NCBI RefSeq assembly: GCF_001995255.1
Contig: NZ_MUZR01000008.1
Location: 62,001 to 126,000, forward strand
DNA length: 64,000 bases
Direction of reading: 5' to 3'
Source: Thioalkalivibrio halophilus
GTDB lineage: Bacteria > Pseudomonadota > Gammaproteobacteria > Ectothiorhodospirales > Ectothiorhodospiraceae
Shown here: positions 30,657 to 37,166 of the stretch, piece after piece
Position numbering within the stretch: position 1 is the stretch's first letter
How the letters are laid out: each line of letters starts with the position of its first letter
Notes under the pieces: model-generated
What the model was told of the DNA's origin: nothing
Databases searched by the model: none
What the model saw: the letters and a program-made list of their open reading frames with translations, nothing else
Program-made: the position numbers and the translations under genes

Positions 30657-32633
30657 ATGAACTTTTTCGAACACCAGGACCGGGCGCATCGCCGCACCCG
30701 GGTCCTGCTGGTCCTGTTTTCCCTGGCCGTCCTGGCCATCGTGGTGGCGATGAACGCGATCGCCCTGCTGTTTCTGGGCCACGATCCATCGGCACAGCCG
30801 GGCGAGCCCCTGCAGCTGGACAAGCTGGTCCGGAACAATCTCGATCTCCTGTTCTGGGTGACCCTGTTCACGATCGTCCTGATCGGTGGCGCGAGCCTTT
30901 ACCGGGCGTCGTCACTGCGAGGCGGGGGTGGCCAGGTCGCCCGGGAGCTGGGCGGCACGCGGGTCGAGCCGGACACCCGGGACCCGCTGCGCCGACGCCT
31001 GGTCAACGTGGTCGAGGAAATTGCGATCGCCTCCGGGGTGCCGGTACCGGAGATCTACGTGCTGGAGGAGGAAAGCGGCATCAATGCCTTTGCTGCGGGG
31101 CATGCGCCGGGCGACGCAGCCATCGCGGTGACCCGGGGGACCCTGGAAACCCTCAACCGCAACGAGCTGCAGGGCGTCGTCGCCCACGAATTCGGGCATA
31201 TCCTCAATGGCGACATGCGCCTGAACATTCGTCTGATCGGAATCCTGTACGGGATCCTGGTGCTTGCCCTGGTGGGGCAGCGGGTGCTGATCGCCATGCG
31301 TTTCTCGCGTGACAGCCGCAACGCCGCCGGTCTGATGGCCGCGGGCCTGGCACTGCTGGTGGTGGGCTACATCGGCCTGTTCTTCGGCCGCTGGATCCGG
31401 GCTTCGGTTTCGCGCCAGCGCGAGTATCTGGCGGACGCCTCGGCCGTGCAGTTTACCCGTCAGCCCGATGGCATCGCCGGGGCTCTGAAGAAGATCGGCG
31501 CACGTCATGCCCGCCTCGATGCGGACTCCGAAGAGGTGGGGCACATGCTGTTCGCCAGTGGAGGCCTCGGGCGCATGTTCGCGACGCACCCCCCACTGGA
31601 GGAACGGATTCGGGCGATCGAGCCGGGGTTCGATCCGTCCGAGTTCGAGCAGGTCGCCCGGCGCATGCGTGAAGAAGCCGAGTCGGGGCAGGCCGCGGCC
31701 GAGGCGGCCGCCGAGCAGGAGGAAAAGGAAGACCGGCGGGGCCCCGGGGGGCTGCCCCTGGATGCCGACCGGCTGGTGGACGGCATTGCCGATCCGGGAC
31801 TGGCGCAGATACTCGGTGCCGGGCTCCTGATGGCCTCGATGCCGGGGCCGCTGGAACAGGCCGCCCACAGCGATGGCTGGGCAGCGGAAGTGGTGCTGTA
31901 TCTCCTGATGAATGCCGACCCCGATGTGCGTGAGCAACAACGCCTGATGGTCGCGGAGAAACGCGGCGGGGACAGCGAGCGCAGGGTCGGACAGCTGCTC
32001 GACATGGTGCCGCAACTGCGTGACGACCTGCGGATTCCGCTGCTGGAGATGGCCTTCCCCGTGTTGCGCCGCCACCCGCGCGAGGAACGCGAGCAGTTGC
32101 AGGAGCTGGTGGAAAGCCTGATCCATGCGGATGGCCGGGTTTCGGCATTTGAATATGCCCTGGGGCGTCTGCTCAACCGGCATCTGATGGATGCCGGAAA
32201 GCCTGGTGACGACGGTGCCGGTGGACATGGGCGACTCGATCGGCACCACGAAGAGGCCCGGTTCCTGCTGGCCGTGCTCGCGCGTCATGGCCACCCCGGG
32301 GACCCGGACGCCGGACGCGCCGCACTGACGGCGGGGATCGAGCGCATCGAGGGACAGGCGCCGGCGGCGGTGGATTTCCCCGAAGCCTGGACCGAATCCG
32401 AGGGGAGCCGGGCATGGGCGGGAGTCCTCGACCAGGTGCTGGATACCCTCGATGCGCTGCGCATGGCGGACAAGGAACGCCTTGTGCGGGCCATGCTGAC
32501 GACCGTGACGCACGGGGGGCAGGTACGGACCGCCGAAGTGGAACTGCTGCGGGCCATGGCGGCGTCGATGCACGTCCCGCTGCCGCTGGCGGAATTCGAC
32601 GCCGGCGAGGAGGGAATGTCCTCCGCCGATTGA
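30657..32633 (+). CDS. M48-family membrane metalloprotease (HtpX-like) with long C-terminal extension
   Basis: 658 aa. Membrane helices flank the N-terminal region (about 17-40, 62-80) and two more sit after the catalytic site (about 192-210, 225-245). The zinc motif is HEFGH at 177-181, with the third ligand Glu in SRQREYLADASAVQFTRQP. These match HtpX-type endopeptidases that degrade damaged membrane proteins. The last 280 residues are extra relative to HtpX: a Glu/Ala-rich linker at about 345-365, then a helical region resembling TerB-like modules (ELLRAMAASMHVPLP). It forms a pair with lemA. The stop lies 24 bases before tRNA-Leu. Confidence 0.86.
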   Translation: MNFFEHQDRAHRRTRVLLVLFSLAVLAIVVAMNAIALLFLGHDPSAQPGEPLQLDKLVRNNLDLLFWVTLFTIVLIGGASLYRASSLRGGGGQVARELGGTRVEPDTRDPLRRRLVNVVEEIAIASGVPVPEIYVLEEESGINAFAAGHAPGDAAIAVTRGTLETLNRNELQGVVAHEFGHILNGDMRLNIRLIGILYGILVLALVGQRVLIAMRFSRDSRNAAGLMAAGLALLVVGYIGLFFGRWIRASVSRQREYLADASAVQFTRQPDGIAGALKKIGARHARLDADSEEVGHMLFASGGLGRMFATHPPLEERIRAIEPGFDPSEFEQVARRMREEAESGQAAAEAAAEQEEKEDRRGPGGLPLDADRLVDGIADPGLAQILGAGLLMASMPGPLEQAAHSDGWAAEVVLYLLMNADPDVREQQRLMVAEKRGGDSERRVGQLLDMVPQLRDDLRIPLLEMAFPVLRRHPREEREQLQELVESLIHADGRVSAFEYALGRLLNRHLMDAGKPGDDGAGGHGRLDRHHEEARFLLAVLARHGHPGDPDAGRAALTAGIERIEGQAPAAVDFPEAWTESEGSRAWAGVLDQVLDTLDALRMADKERLVRAMLTTVTHGGQVRTAEVELLRAMAASMHVPLPLAEFDAGEEGMSSAD

Positions 32634-32657
32634 CGCGGTATCATCCGCCGTGTCTGC

Positions 32658-32744
32658 GGGGGCGTGGCGAAACAGGTAGACGCAGCAGACTTAAAATCTG
32701 CCGGCCACAAGGCCGTGCCGGTTCGAGTCCGGCCGTCCCCACCA
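32658..32744 (+). tRNA. tRNA-Leu (anticodon TAA)
   Basis: An 87-nt class II tRNA with acceptor GGGGGCG pairing CGTCCCC (one G-U pair), encoded ACCA, anticodon stem GCAGA/TCTGC around loop CTTAAAA, and a long variable arm (CGGCCACAAGGCCGT). It reads UUA and UUG. In E. coli the matching leuZ directly follows glyW and cysT; here it lies 8.2 kb downstream of tRNA-Cys. A TATCAT hexamer at 32639-32644 is a possible -10. Confidence 0.95.
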
Positions 32745-32838
32745 GCTTCTCTGCCGGGAATCTGTGCTCTTCCGGCGGAAGGACAACAGGCAATGGTTTT
32801 CGTGCCGCTCCCGATGCATTGTGGATTCAAGGGACCCC

Positions 32839-32886
32839 GTTTGCGGGGACAGGGGAAATGAGGTTTGCGGGGACAGGGGAAATGAG
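32839..32886 (+). repeat. Perfect 24-bp tandem duplication covering a ribosome-binding site and start codon
   Basis: Two identical, adjacent 24-base copies (32839-32862 and 32863-32886) each contain GCGGGGACAGGGG followed by AAATGAG. Because 24 is a multiple of three, both ATGs are in the same frame. The second opens the diguanylate cyclase; the first would add eight residues. The unit also resembles GGGGACAGG-type repeats found near REP elements. Confidence 0.85.
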
Positions 32887-35170
32887 CCAGCCGTCCGAAG
32901 AAGATTCTGGTCGAAACCCCGGGGCCCACGACGTTGGCGGGATGGTCCTTCACGGGAGTCCGCGTTCCCTGCCACTGGCCGTCGGCTTCGTGGCAATGCT
33001 GCTGTTTGCCGGCATGTTCCTGTTGGCGGATCGCGCCTGGGAGCGGCAGCTCACGGAGCGCCATCACTCCAACCTCGCCAGCGAGGTAGCCAGCAAGCGT
33101 ACGCGCCTGGAAAGCGTGATCAACAGTCTGGTTCACGCCACCATCGGTCTTTCGGCCTATGCCGAGGCCCGGCCCGGTCTGGATGTCGAGGAATTCGAAC
33201 GCGTGGCCGAACGGCTCTATCGCCGGGATCCGGAAGTCTTCCGCTCATTGACGCTGCTGGCAGGTTCCCGCATCCATTTCGTGTATCCGCTGGAGGGCAA
33301 TCGTGAAGCCCTCGGCCTCGACGTTGCGGAGCACCCCGAACAGGGAGACTCGTTCCGTCGGGTCATGGATTCCGGACAGACGGTGGTGGCCGGGCCCTGG
33401 GAACTGGAGCAGGGCGGGGTCGGCCTGCTGGTACGCAGCCCGGTTGGAGTACCGGGCTCCGTTGACGGGGTGACGAACGGTTCGCCGTCTGCCCCCTTGT
33501 TCACGATGTCCAGCGTTGCCCTCGATTTCGAGGCGATTCTGGAGCGGGCGGGTTTCGGGCAGGGCAGCGGTCTCGTGCAGCTTGCCATAAAGGGCAGGGA
33601 CGGGACTGGCGCGCGTGGTGAGGTGTTCCATGATCCGCAGGAGATCGCGGCCGGTCCCATTGAATGGCGCCAGACGGTCAGTTTTGCCGGTGGCGAATGG
33701 GTGCTGCTGGCGCGCCCGGCGGAGGATGCCATTCCCACCGCCCGGCCACCGGCCTGGTGGGCCTTCGGGATCGTCGGTACGCTGGCCCTGGGCGGTCTCA
33801 GCTGGCGCGTGACGGGATACGTCCGCGACCGTCGTCGCCTTCTGGCGCAATATCATGCACTGGTCAGCAACCTGGAAGATGCCACGCTGGTGGTGCGGGG
33901 TACACGGTTGCTCTGGACCAATCCGGCGTTTCGCCGCGCTACCGGGCGCACCCCCGGTGTGCTCGGTACGGTTGAAGACCTTGCTCTGTTTCATCCGGAC
34001 GATATCGAAGGTCTGCCGGCCGATCTCGACTTCTCCGAAGAAGACCCGGAGCCATCCGGCCGTCAGGTCCGTGTCCTCATGGCGGATGGTCACTGGCGCT
34101 TCCATCTGCTGCGCTGGGTGCCGATCCCATGGGAGCAGGGGCAGGCCATGCTCCTCATCCTCGTGGACGTGCACGAAAACCGGATGCTGTTCGAGGCCCT
34201 TGCCCAGGCGCGCGACCTGCAGGATGCCCTGTTCGAGGCCATGCCCGGGCACGCGCTGGTCATTGGCGAAGAGGGGAGGGTATATCGCTCCTTCGGAGAT
34301 GCCTGGGCACGGGGGGAAGTCGACGCTGAGGGGCCCGGGGCGATCGTGGGCCATTGCGTGGAGGAGTTGCTGCCCGAGCCCGTGGCCCGGCAGTTTCTCG
34401 CGGTTGTAAGGCGTGCGCTCTCCGAGGGAGCCCTGCAGGAAACCGAATATCTTCTGGACCCGGGCGTTCTGCATCCGGCCGGATCGGCGGAGGGATATGC
34501 CCCGGGCGAATGCCGCGAGGACGGGCAACGCTGGTTCGAGGCCCGCGTGCGTCCCATTGCCGCGCATTTCGAAGGCCGGGCGGCGGTGGTCTGGCATGCG
34601 CTGGATGTCACGGCCCGCCGCCACCTGGAAGAGCGGCTCCAGACGCTCGCGTGGCAGGATCCACTGACCGAGGCGGCCAATCGTGCGGCGCTGGAACGCG
34701 CGTTTCCCCGCATGTCTTCCCGTGCCCGACGCCAGGGCGAGCAGCTGGCCATGATTTTCATCGATCTGGACCGTTTCAAGCCGATCAATGACCAGTACGG
34801 ACATGCGGTGGGTGACCAGCTACTGCGCAGGTTGTCCGCGGCTCTCGCGGACCAGCTGCGGGCCGAAGACCTGCTCGTGCGTCTGGGTGGCGACGAATTC
34901 CTGATACTGACGGGATCCCTCGCCTCACGGGATGAAGTGCCCCCCCTCATCGAGAGGCTCCGCGGCGTCTTCGAAACCCGATGGGAGCTGACACTGGATG
35001 ACGGTGCGCTGGTTTCGGTCGTCGTCACGGCCAGCATTGGCGTTGCGTTTCATCCGGAGCACGGCGAGAGCCTGTCCGAACTGATCGCGTCCGCCGACCG
35101 GGCGATGTACCGGGTGAAGGGGCGGGGACGCAATGCGGTGGCGTGGGTGGAGGGGGACGACGTCCGTTAA
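32882..35170 (+). CDS. CHASE-PAS-GGDEF diguanylate cyclase
   Basis: A 762-aa membrane-bound enzyme making c-di-GMP from two GTP. Helix 1 is near residues 33-55. An extracytoplasmic CHASE domain follows (VINSLVHATIGLSAYAEARP, ALGLDVAEHPEQGDSFRRVM), and helix 2 is at about 290-310. Two PAS-like regions lie at about 320-430 and 440-575. The C-terminal GGDEF domain has LGGDEFLIL, with the product-inhibition I-site RAED five residues before it, so feedback control is likely. The first ATG of the tandem repeat (32858) is an alternative start. The TAA stop lies in the TTAA that borders the MITE at 35171. Confidence 0.9.
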   Translation: MSQPSEEDSGRNPGAHDVGGMVLHGSPRSLPLAVGFVAMLLFAGMFLLADRAWERQLTERHHSNLASEVASKRTRLESVINSLVHATIGLSAYAEARPGLDVEEFERVAERLYRRDPEVFRSLTLLAGSRIHFVYPLEGNREALGLDVAEHPEQGDSFRRVMDSGQTVVAGPWELEQGGVGLLVRSPVGVPGSVDGVTNGSPSAPLFTMSSVALDFEAILERAGFGQGSGLVQLAIKGRDGTGARGEVFHDPQEIAAGPIEWRQTVSFAGGEWVLLARPAEDAIPTARPPAWWAFGIVGTLALGGLSWRVTGYVRDRRRLLAQYHALVSNLEDATLVVRGTRLLWTNPAFRRATGRTPGVLGTVEDLALFHPDDIEGLPADLDFSEEDPEPSGRQVRVLMADGHWRFHLLRWVPIPWEQGQAMLLILVDVHENRMLFEALAQARDLQDALFEAMPGHALVIGEEGRVYRSFGDAWARGEVDAEGPGAIVGHCVEELLPEPVARQFLAVVRRALSEGALQETEYLLDPGVLHPAGSAEGYAPGECREDGQRWFEARVRPIAAHFEGRAAVVWHALDVTARRHLEERLQTLAWQDPLTEAANRAALERAFPRMSSRARRQGEQLAMIFIDLDRFKPINDQYGHAVGDQLLRRLSAALADQLRAEDLLVRLGGDEFLILTGSLASRDEVPPLIERLRGVFETRWELTLDDGALVSVVVTASIGVAFHPEHGESLSELIASADRAMYRVKGRGRNAVAWVEGDDVR

Positions 35171-35315
35171 GGAAACACTGATCGGGGTTGGCACTCCCGG
35201 TTCCCCGATCCTGCGTTGCGTCGCTTGCAGGCGGAGTCACTACCCGCTGCGCGACGCGCCTTGTCTCGGAAAACCCGGGGAACCACCGCCAGCGTGCACA
35301 TGGATCAGCGTTTCC
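35171..35315. mobile_element. 145-bp MITE-like element flanked by TTAA target duplication
   Basis: Terminal inverted repeats are GGAAACACTGATC (35171-35183) and GATCAGCGTTTCC (35303-35315), 12 of 13 matching. Directly outside each end is TTAA (35167-35170 and 35316-35319), consistent with a 4-bp target-site duplication. An internal hairpin GATCGGGG...CCCCGATC lies at 35180-35210. No open reading frame of significance is inside, so it would be non-autonomous; no matching transposase is in the window. Removing the element and one TTAA joins the two flanking genes tail to tail at one TTAA. Confidence 0.75.
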
Positions 35316-37166
35316 TTAACCCGGACCCTTGTCCAGGCGCCGCGGTGAAAGGCGCCGCGCCACGGCCTTTTCAACGGGTTCCGGCAGGTCCACCAGCCGG
35401 TCGGCGGCCAGTTCACCGCTGATCGGGGCATACAGCAGCCCACGGGAGCCGTGCCCGAGCGTCAGCATCACCCGGCCGCGCGCGTCCATGCTGGATGCTC
35501 CCACTAGCGGCAGACGGTCCCGGTAGACGGCGCGGATCCCGGTCCAGCGTTCCATGATGCGGGCATCCTCCGGAGACGGCATCCCCGGTACCCATGCCAG
35601 GTGCCTCAGGTTGTGATGGTCGTCTTCGATAGTCGGTTCGGGCGGGAGGGACGGATCATCGGGCAGGCCGTCATGGCGATAGGTTGCGCCGATCCAGTGG
35701 TCGTCCGTGTCCTGGCGTATCCAGTAGCCCTGGCCGGTGCGCACCCGGAAATCGCGACTTGCCAGCGGGTAACGCAGACGGGTCATCTGTCCGCCAACGG
35801 TGTCGAGCCGTGCCTGTTCGGGACAAAGGGGCACGCCAGCCGTGGCGATGACGACGGCGTGGAACGTCGTGCTTGTTGCCGGATCCCCGTCGAACTCCAG
35901 CAGCACTTCGTCGGGTCCGGGCCGGATCTCCCTGACCCGGTAGCGTTCCACTGCCGGGAGAGCGCCGGCCAGGCCGCGACAGAGGGCGCTCATGTTGACC
36001 GCTCGTCCGCCGGGGTAGTCCAGAACCGGGCCCGGGGCGCCGGCAGGGGTGGTGGCGGCGGGATCGAACAGATACCCGCTCTCGGCCGGATCGCGCGCAC
36101 GCAGGCGCTGCACGCGCTTGCGCGCATGCCCCGAAATACCATGGAAGGCGACGCTGTCTCCCAGCAGGACCTCGGATTCATCGCCGTTCAGCCCTTCGGC
36201 GGCACGCTTGATCAGCGCATGCGTATGCCGCATCCCGGTCAGGGCGAGGGCATTGAGCCCGGCGTCGTCGGGCAGCAGGTGGGGCAGAAGCACCGCCGCG
36301 GGGTTACCGGAGGCTCCGCCGCCGGGACCGGCGGGATCGAACAGGTGGACGTTGCAGCCGCGGTCCTGCAGGGCGAGGGCGGCCGAGAGCCCGGCAATAC
36401 CCGCGCCGATGACCGCCACGCGCTCGGGCCGCGGGCGACCTTCCGGGTCGCTTGCGGGTTTGCTGTCGCCGAAATGACCGCACAGCCGTTCGCGTTTCCG
36501 GCCATGGCCGGGTTCCCGCCGCACGGTGAAGCCCGCCGCTTCCAGGTCCCGCCGCACCTGTCCGGCCGCTGCATAGGTTCCAAAGGTGGTGCCGGGCCGG
36601 GAGATCCGCGCCATTTGACGGAACACGCCAATATTCCACAGGCCGGGGTTGCGACGCGGTGCAAATCCGTCCAGGTACCAGGCATCCACGCCGGCATTCA
36701 GCTGCGGGAGGGTGACGGCCGCATCACCGAACACCAGGGTCAGGACTGCTCGTGCCTGCGGGAAATGGATCCGGTGCAGGCCGGTTACCGGAGGCGGGTA
36801 ACCGCTGCGCAGACGCTCGGCGTCAGGTCCGTCCAGCCCCAGCATCCGATGTGCGCGGTCGAGGTCGTCGGGGTGCAGGGGGCGTGATTCAAAGCCGATC
36901 AGGGACAGGAAGCCGTCGGGCTGCGCCCGCGAGCGCCACTCCCGCAGTGTCAGAAGGGCGTTGAGACCGGTGCCGAAGCCGGTCTCGGCGACCGCAAGTC
37001 GGGCGCCGGGCCGGGCAAAACGCCGCGGAAGGTCGTTGGCCTCGAGAAAGACTTCGTGCGCTTCCTCGAGCGGCGCGTCCGAGCCGAAATAGCCGTCGCC
37101 GAACTCGGGAGAGACGGGCTGTCCGTCCCTCCATTCGAGACGTGCAAAGGCCAGTGCTTCGGGCAA
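35316..37166 (-). CDS. mnmC: Bifunctional tRNA mnm5s2U34 biosynthesis protein MnmC
   Basis: 616 aa. The N-terminal MnmC2 methyltransferase domain has SAM motif AVAETGFGTGLNALLTLREW and product pocket VDAWYLDGFAPRRNPGLW. The C-terminal FAD-dependent MnmC1 domain has VAVIGAGIAGLSAALALQDRG. Together they convert cmnm5U to mnm5U at the wobble base. MnmA, which thiolates the same base, is encoded at 55.5 kb. The start is TTG at 37166, set by the family N-terminus (RLEWRDGQPVSPEFGDGYFG); its ribosome-binding site is weak. The stop TAA lies in the TTAA bordering the MITE. Confidence 0.91.
   Translation of the reverse strand: MPEALAFARLEWRDGQPVSPEFGDGYFGSDAPLEEAHEVFLEANDLPRRFARPGARLAVAETGFGTGLNALLTLREWRSRAQPDGFLSLIGFESRPLHPDDLDRAHRMLGLDGPDAERLRSGYPPPVTGLHRIHFPQARAVLTLVFGDAAVTLPQLNAGVDAWYLDGFAPRRNPGLWNIGVFRQMARISRPGTTFGTYAAAGQVRRDLEAAGFTVRREPGHGRKRERLCGHFGDSKPASDPEGRPRPERVAVIGAGIAGLSAALALQDRGCNVHLFDPAGPGGGASGNPAAVLLPHLLPDDAGLNALALTGMRHTHALIKRAAEGLNGDESEVLLGDSVAFHGISGHARKRVQRLRARDPAESGYLFDPAATTPAGAPGPVLDYPGGRAVNMSALCRGLAGALPAVERYRVREIRPGPDEVLLEFDGDPATSTTFHAVVIATAGVPLCPEQARLDTVGGQMTRLRYPLASRDFRVRTGQGYWIRQDTDDHWIGATYRHDGLPDDPSLPPEPTIEDDHHNLRHLAWVPGMPSPEDARIMERWTGIRAVYRDRLPLVGASSMDARGRVMLTLGHGSRGLLYAPISGELAADRLVDLPEPVEKAVARRLSPRRLDKGPG

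Follow-up and report, generated by a model that had tools for sequence, protein, structure and literature searches.

IS5 of Escherichia coli is an insertion sequence (IS) of about 1.2 kb, and the target of its family goes by the name YTAR. According to PMC11677980, E. coli IS5 duplicates 4 bp with the consensus CA/TAG/A and has a bias towards intergenic, AT-rich sites. Among the bacterial miniature inverted-repeat transposable elements (MITEs), RUP, which is thought to be moved by IS630-Spn1, is found between genes, and most of the MITEs covered by the review that describes it have TA termini or targets and are A+T-rich (PMC2229807). Here we describe an element of Thioalkalivibrio halophilus that compares with these systems. 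It lies at 35171..35315 (plus strand) of the window, i.e., the whole stretch of 64,000 nucleotides that was analysed (contig NZ_MUZR01000008.1, positions 62,001 to 126,000), between a diguanylate cyclase gene (dgc) and the convergent gene mnmC. The element is very probably a decayed non-autonomous transposon, that is, a MITE with an IS5-type parent, which moved into a YTAR site.

The likenesses are several. The parent IS resembles IS5 in its 4-bp duplication of the CTAG/CTAA type (PMC11677980), its DDE transposase and its length of about 1.2 kb, whereas the window element carries no transposase, and TTAA is the second commonest duplication in its family. Like RUP and Correia/NEMIS, as portrayed in PMC2229807, the family is short and non-coding, shares its inverted ends with an IS, duplicates its target and can fold into RNA stem-loops; unlike them, the Thioalkalivibrio MITE uses YTAR, is GC-rich, has IS5-type ends and often sits on a stop codon. 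The smtA motif is similarly genus-restricted, structured and covariation-supported, but it exceeds 350 nt and lies upstream of smtA (PMC11109978). The family is a new one among IS5-type MITEs, of a kind already known, and the element is one of its decayed members; this single insertion is neat, but its mechanism is ordinary. Neither the family nor its habit appeared among the matches listed for titles and abstract openings on Thioalkalivibrio MITEs, ISs and transposases, on stop-codon insertion and on IS5 targets.

The element, its family and its target sites

The element is flanked on both sides by TTAA. The left target repeat (35167..35170) contains the TAA stop of the cyclase gene (32414..35170, plus strand), and the right one (35316..35319) contains, on the minus strand, the TAA stop of mnmC (35316..37166, minus strand). 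As read on the forward strand, the ends of the element are GGAAACACTGATC and GATCAGCGTTTCC; the left terminal inverted repeat (35171..35183) was trimmed to 13 bp by a deletion, and the right one (35303..35315), recognised by its inverted-repeat match, reads GGAAACGCTGATC on the minus strand. Extended by the TTAAs and a further outer base, the arms comprise 18 nt and are 94% complementary. The cyclase open reading frame (ORF) closes ...CGT TAA and mnmC closes ...GGT TAA; when the flanks are joined by eye (...CGTTAACC...), a single palindromic GTTAAC holds both stops, which suggests an element-free ancestral junction ...GTCCGTTAACCCGG..., TTAA included. The coordinates confirm the first-pass annotation of this DNA, in which the inverted ends were described as flanked by TTAA copies that each hold the TAA of one gene. 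The 4-bp duplication reported there is perfect on both sides, and the proteins that it took to be spared by the insertion are encoded by reading frames that both retain their stop codons. The designation as a MITE also stands, on the grounds of family copies, target repeats and ends common to an IS.

In the own genome (97 contigs, 2.87 Mb), at least 21 matches to the element were found, itself included, and at least 10 of the others exceed 100 bp at 79-87% identity (both counts from the best 40 of 59 candidates scored); other copies of the element thus exist in the genome, and these matches show that the structure is not a product of chance. There are 45 occurrences of the exact end GGAAACRCTGATC in this genome compared with 0 for the reversed control, which is too lenient since it contains CTAG, a sequence rare in this genome. 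Of 58 genomes searched (its own, 29 others of the genus and 28 beyond), 16 carry the MITE, all of them among the 30 genus genomes and none among the 28 outside. The 92 copies analysed were drawn largely from the best-scoring matches and do not represent every copy in the genus. Their lengths cluster at 265-267, 279-282 and 295-297 bp, so that the overall form of the family measures 265-297 bp, and the alignment indicates that the size classes differ by gain or loss of hairpin tips. The family accordingly has the hallmarks of a MITE: its members are short and non-coding with inverted ends (in copies of the 265-bp class the outer stem runs to 28 pairs), multi-copy, bounded by a target-site duplication, present or absent at orthologous sites, and equipped with ends common to an autonomous IS.

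After 10 of the 92 copies had been dropped for similar flanks, 82 were scored for target repeats, and 31 of these have perfect 4-bp repeats (CTAG in 20, TTAA in 10 and CTAA in 1). The TTAA duplication, which had initially been regarded as unusual and as a clue to the parent transposase, is one form of the IS5-type YTAR duplication, in which CTAG is commoner. Elements of the piggyBac and IS1380 groups target TTAA exclusively, and an element of this type might be suspected from the TTAA on both sides of the window copy and in 10 of the 31 perfect repeats. Such an origin is extremely improbable, as CTAG is twice as frequent as TTAA among the perfect repeats of the family and the IS that shares its ends has a transposase of the IS5 family. 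A TTAA-specific transposase was ruled out as a candidate on the mixed YTAR repeats, in which CTAG dominates, and on the identification of the IS5-type enzyme.

The IS5-type parent and sites without the element

A transposase bounded by the same ends, as anticipated in the first-pass annotation, is present in relatives within the genus. A search for PF01609 in the 30 genus genomes, combined with a search for an 81-amino-acid piece, revealed eight closely related transposase loci (in G010, G012, G021, G022 and G029), of which L068 is cut by a contig end, leaving seven IS loci for repeat scoring. The IS, of about 1.2 kb, bears GGAAAC(A/G)CTGATC-type ends in the copies L069-L072, L082 and L088, and its left end GGAAACGCTGATCAATG matches that of the MITE for 17 bp, the variable seventh base excepted. 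In model searches the L071 transposase (321 aa) reached 319 bits with NF033581 ('IS5 family transposase', cut-off 140) and 99.6 bits with PF01609. Perfect 4-bp repeats lie outside the matching ends in five of the seven IS copies, i.e., CTAG in L071 and L082, TTAA in L069, and GTAG in L088 and TAAG in L072, the last two being 4 bp long but not YTAR; those of L070 (CTAA/CTAC) and L083 (CTAG/TTAA) are imperfect. With an IS5-type DDE transposase and a 4-bp YTAR duplication (CTAG twice, TTAA once), the parent belongs to the IS5 family. End pairs were also tested at 26 of 80 named loci matching the transposase, and GGAARC-type ends with CTAG, CTAA or TTAG were found at 10 of them, including loci in Massilia, Azoarcus, Sulfuricella and Nitrosomonas. 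At L071 (1002-2515), a 310-bp MITE variant adjoins a 1200-bp IS copy, with CTAG alone between the two and CTAG outside each. We infer that the parent IS mobilises the MITE in trans: the IS5-type transposase would act on a MITE with IS-like ends, which would enter a 4-bp YTAR site, TTAA in this case, and duplicate it. In the genome of the window only a transposase fragment was found, beside a MITE end (C62).

The gene pair itself can be followed through the genus. A match to mnmC was found in all 30 genus genomes (weak in G007, E = 7.7e-4, and partial in a few), and of the first 15 mnmC loci (L191-L205), 14 have a GGDEF gene that faces mnmC, the locus of the window (L191) included; no GGDEF motif was found at mnmC loci L198 and L206-L216. 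The element is absent from the dgc-mnmC junction in all 13 relatives with the gene pair, where the stops range from a 49-bp overlap to 77 bp apart and the TAG stop of mnmC falls in CTAG in six. At L204 (G024), one CTAG serves both genes, providing the TAG of the cyclase on one strand and that of mnmC on the other, and the spacing is that of the joined flanks of the window, with CTAG replacing TTAA. In the closest relative (G012), with an mnmC 76% identical, the stops are TGA and the genes overlap by 21 bp. The tail-to-tail arrangement of dgc and mnmC is thus of long standing, and G024 demonstrates that the two genes can indeed end on one YTAR palindrome.

Other insertion sites were examined by joining the flanks of 11 copies, searching for them in the genus and aligning them to 14 loci, and for 7 of the 11 the alignment spans the junction at loci that lack the full element. 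For L006, a copy from the own genome, G012 has an exact empty site (L306) with a single CTAG and flanks that are 94% identical, and the TAG there is the stop codon of the preceding gene. For the CTAA copy L166, the empty relative L305 contains one extra base, and another relative, L304, has CTAA and the 13-bp end only. The relatives of L028, L042 and L135 show a single-base difference in the 4-mer, and the alignment of L142 and L177 to element-free loci is less clear.

Several of these results weigh against an IS5-type MITE that entered a YTAR site. Most copies have imperfect repeats (31 are perfect out of 82), and for 12 of the 79 copies with long enough flanks neither repeat is YTAR. A full-length relative of the transposase was not found in 11 of the 16 MITE-bearing genomes. 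At 16 of the 26 related IS loci the simple search gave other end pairs or none; this search is insensitive, because it missed L221 and L222 (Thioalkalivibrio sp. ALJ24), whose ends had been found earlier. The empty site is exact for L006 only, out of the seven joined-flank cases. Finally, TTAA occurs at the dgc-mnmC junction in none of the 13 element-free relatives, compared with CTAG in six. This absence does not refute the proposed insertion, because all 13 relatives are far diverged (mnmC protein identity 55-76%). The tail-to-tail ancestor of the first-pass annotation was found in part: the comparison of relatives that it suggested yielded element-free junctions throughout, and in G024 the shared 4-bp palindrome itself, but as CTAG, with TTAA in none.

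As for the flanking genes, known from the ORF list and domain searches, the upstream one encodes a CHASE-PAS-GGDEF diguanylate cyclase in which CHASE, PAS and GGDEF domains were found. A tRNA-Leu gene (anticodon taa) lies at 32658-32744 inside this 918-aa ORF, on the same strand, and the listed ORF is therefore too long at its start, the true start being further downstream. The downstream gene, mnmC, encodes the bifunctional tRNA mnm5s2U enzyme with Methyltransf_30 and DAO domains; the MnmC2 domain model scores above its cut-off, whereas the full-length NCBIfam mnmC model remains below its own.

Fold and internal deletion of the window copy

The majority consensus, built from 93 aligned copies, has a length of 266 bp, and its predicted fold (-178.7 kcal/mol, z = -14.35) comprises an outer stem with hairpin arms inside. 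Among 40 copies of the 265 class, two-sided changes were found in 18 of 97 pairs compared with a shuffle mean of 5.6, and with 5 or fewer when slid, although these copies were not thinned for similar flanks, and related copies inflate such counts. The outer stem, with its 28 pairs (alignment columns 1-29 with 241-268), accounts for twelve of the 18 and shows many compensatory changes; there are some in the inner arms. Such covariation could arise because the ends have to match, because one arm is copied from the other, or because the structure has a role. In the window copy the fold is weaker (z = -3.0).

The depth of the consensus fold and the excess of pairs changed on both sides are what would be expected of a structured repeat that serves the host between convergent genes, such as a bidirectional terminator, an RNA element or a unit resembling repetitive extragenic palindromes. 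This explanation is nevertheless very unlikely for the window element. No terminator- or promoter-like site was found by pattern in 35050-35450; a hairpin arm and half the outer stem are missing from the window copy; the same convergent pair exists without the element in 13 relatives; and compensatory change in an inverted repeat can also arise when one arm is copied from the other. No Rfam family reached its gathering score at the element; three tRNAs were the only hits above that score when the window was screened together with six loci of MITEs or ISs. Both a terminator or promoter within the element and a known RNA family were consequently rejected as candidates.

Compared with the consensus, the window copy is 89.0% identical where aligned, whereas the median copy reaches 95.1%. 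It comprises 145 of about 266 bp, as judged from family matches and alignment, and is missing the roughly 121 bp that separate the left GATC from the inner GGGG. According to the copy alignment, the deletion joint lies at 35183..35184 and the loss includes the first inner hairpin arm, while alignment and fold place the retained right half, with the second inner hairpin arm, at 35184..35302 (plus strand). The joint is private, being shared by none of the 92 other aligned copies, and the 145 bp that the first-pass annotation took as the size of the element are instead those of a private deletion derivative of a 265-297-bp element. The window copy is best read as old and internally deleted rather than as a 145-bp mobile unit, and it is probably immobile now, because its own genome shows a transposase remnant only.

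A mobile subfamily of 145 bp, inserted at its present size, would also account for the perfect target repeats of the window copy, and other short forms do exist, namely L181 (157 bp, with perfect CTAA repeats), L111 (190 bp) and two forms of about 202-203 bp in G029. It is nonetheless an improbable explanation, given that the 145-bp joint is absent from all other copies among the 93 aligned, that the window copy is among the most diverged, and that just 13 bp of its left end remain, compared with an agreement of 17 bp, bar the variable seventh base, between the left ends of MITE and IS. The internal deletion would have occurred after insertion of a full-length copy; on the other side, copies that keep just 13 bp of the left end could be mobile, in which case the deletion could have preceded the insertion.

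Stop codons and the decay of copies

An insertion was counted as lying on a stop codon when TAA or TAG in the YTAR repeat closes a gene-like frame, defined as at least 60 open codons with a supporting codon score, for which 27 long ORFs from the window served as the training set; for the count of 67 copies, where one repeat copy alone was YTAR, that copy was placed in the joined site. The classes rest on this crude coding score and not on curated gene calls, and the control sites are near MITEs. By this measure, 22 of 67 copies lie on a stop codon compared with 28 of 365 other YTAR sites at the same loci (Fisher p = 2.0e-7, odds ratio 5.9), and the odds ratio ranges from 4.8 to 8.5 across six threshold settings. 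Twenty-one of these copies are one-sided, and the window copy is two-sided. In a stricter count, in which each flank is taken with its own repeat, 21 of 82 copies lie on a stop codon (odds ratio 4.1, p = 1.9e-5), or, by side, 22 of 161 compared with 34 of 814 control sides (odds ratio 3.6, p about 2e-5). A frame ends exactly at the repeat in 23 of 134 sides, compared with 10 and 0 of 134 for the other two frames, for which no stop was required. The effect is weak for CTAG sites alone (13/36 vs. 16/90, p = 0.036) and stronger for TTAA sites alone (4/11 vs. 2/70, p = 0.003).

Since YTAR includes TAA or TAG, a site at a gene end can hold the stop of that gene, and because the duplication would renew the stop, handing each side its own copy, insertion on a stop codon would be nearly neutral; at the dgc-mnmC junction it would be neutral for two convergent genes simultaneously. 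Survival of such harmless insertions would be the simplest cause of the enrichment. Alternatively, stop codons might be actively targeted, for example by way of terminating transcription complexes. In favour of targeting, the enrichment persists against control sites that are not scored inside genes (22/62 vs. 28/312, p = 5.7e-7), but some interior sites may be scored as 'between' genes under the crude coding score. Moreover, insertions inside genes are depleted (5/67 vs. 53/365 controls), in the direction that selection predicts, although not significantly (p = 0.17). Active targeting thus appears rather unlikely, and survival is the preferred explanation.

Copies also decay to their ends, and partnerless MITE ends are common in the genus genomes. 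A count by eye, without a control, gave 14 remnants with a gene-like stop or start among the 31 solo ends scored in G000 and G029. At three loci of the own genome (L125 1642, L123 1666 and L122 1644), solo ends of 13-14 bp are followed by a convergent gene-like frame that has its TGA stop within the end itself (CTGATCAG), and at L125 and L123 the stop of the first gene is likewise at the solo end. At L347 (1504, in G029), a MITE end contains the ATG start of a gene that, from its N-terminus, we take to encode proline iminopeptidase. The arrangement is kept at 92-96% identity in L353-L356 (G001, G025, G005 and, shortened, G020), and the MITE end may supply both the start codon and a ribosome site.

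The routes of decay can be suggested from the remnants. That of L346 is TTAA followed by GGAAACACTGATC, and its relative L357 reads TTAATC there, the outcome expected if a deletion had joined short ATC repeats. The 22-bp palindromes of two fused ends (L112 1577, L113 833, L114 1590, L131 2618 and L171 1459, in G000, G029 and G005) appear to have formed by deletion between the TGATCA copies that the inverted ends contain. A host operator as the source of the solo ends is not favoured: exact ends track MITE presence across the genus, with 0-5 per genome in the 14 genomes without a MITE match and 6-47 in the 16 with one, and the L166 locus exists as a full copy, as a 13-bp end (L304) and empty (L305) across relatives.

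The stop-codon habit is the part worth following. It is possible, and proposed here tentatively, that the family is an IS5-powered MITE living on stop codons, whose decayed ends of 13-22 bp become gene spacers and sometimes a stop, or a ribosome site and start. If so, gene ends would be its main safe harbour in a GC-rich genus in which YTAR is rare, and gene junctions would be slowly rewritten. Full and partial copies, remnants of 13 bp and empty sites are all present in the genus, so that the life and decay of the MITE can be traced stepwise. This would provide a countable route by which a transposon may spread in a compact genome without gene breakage, as its target contains and renews the stop.

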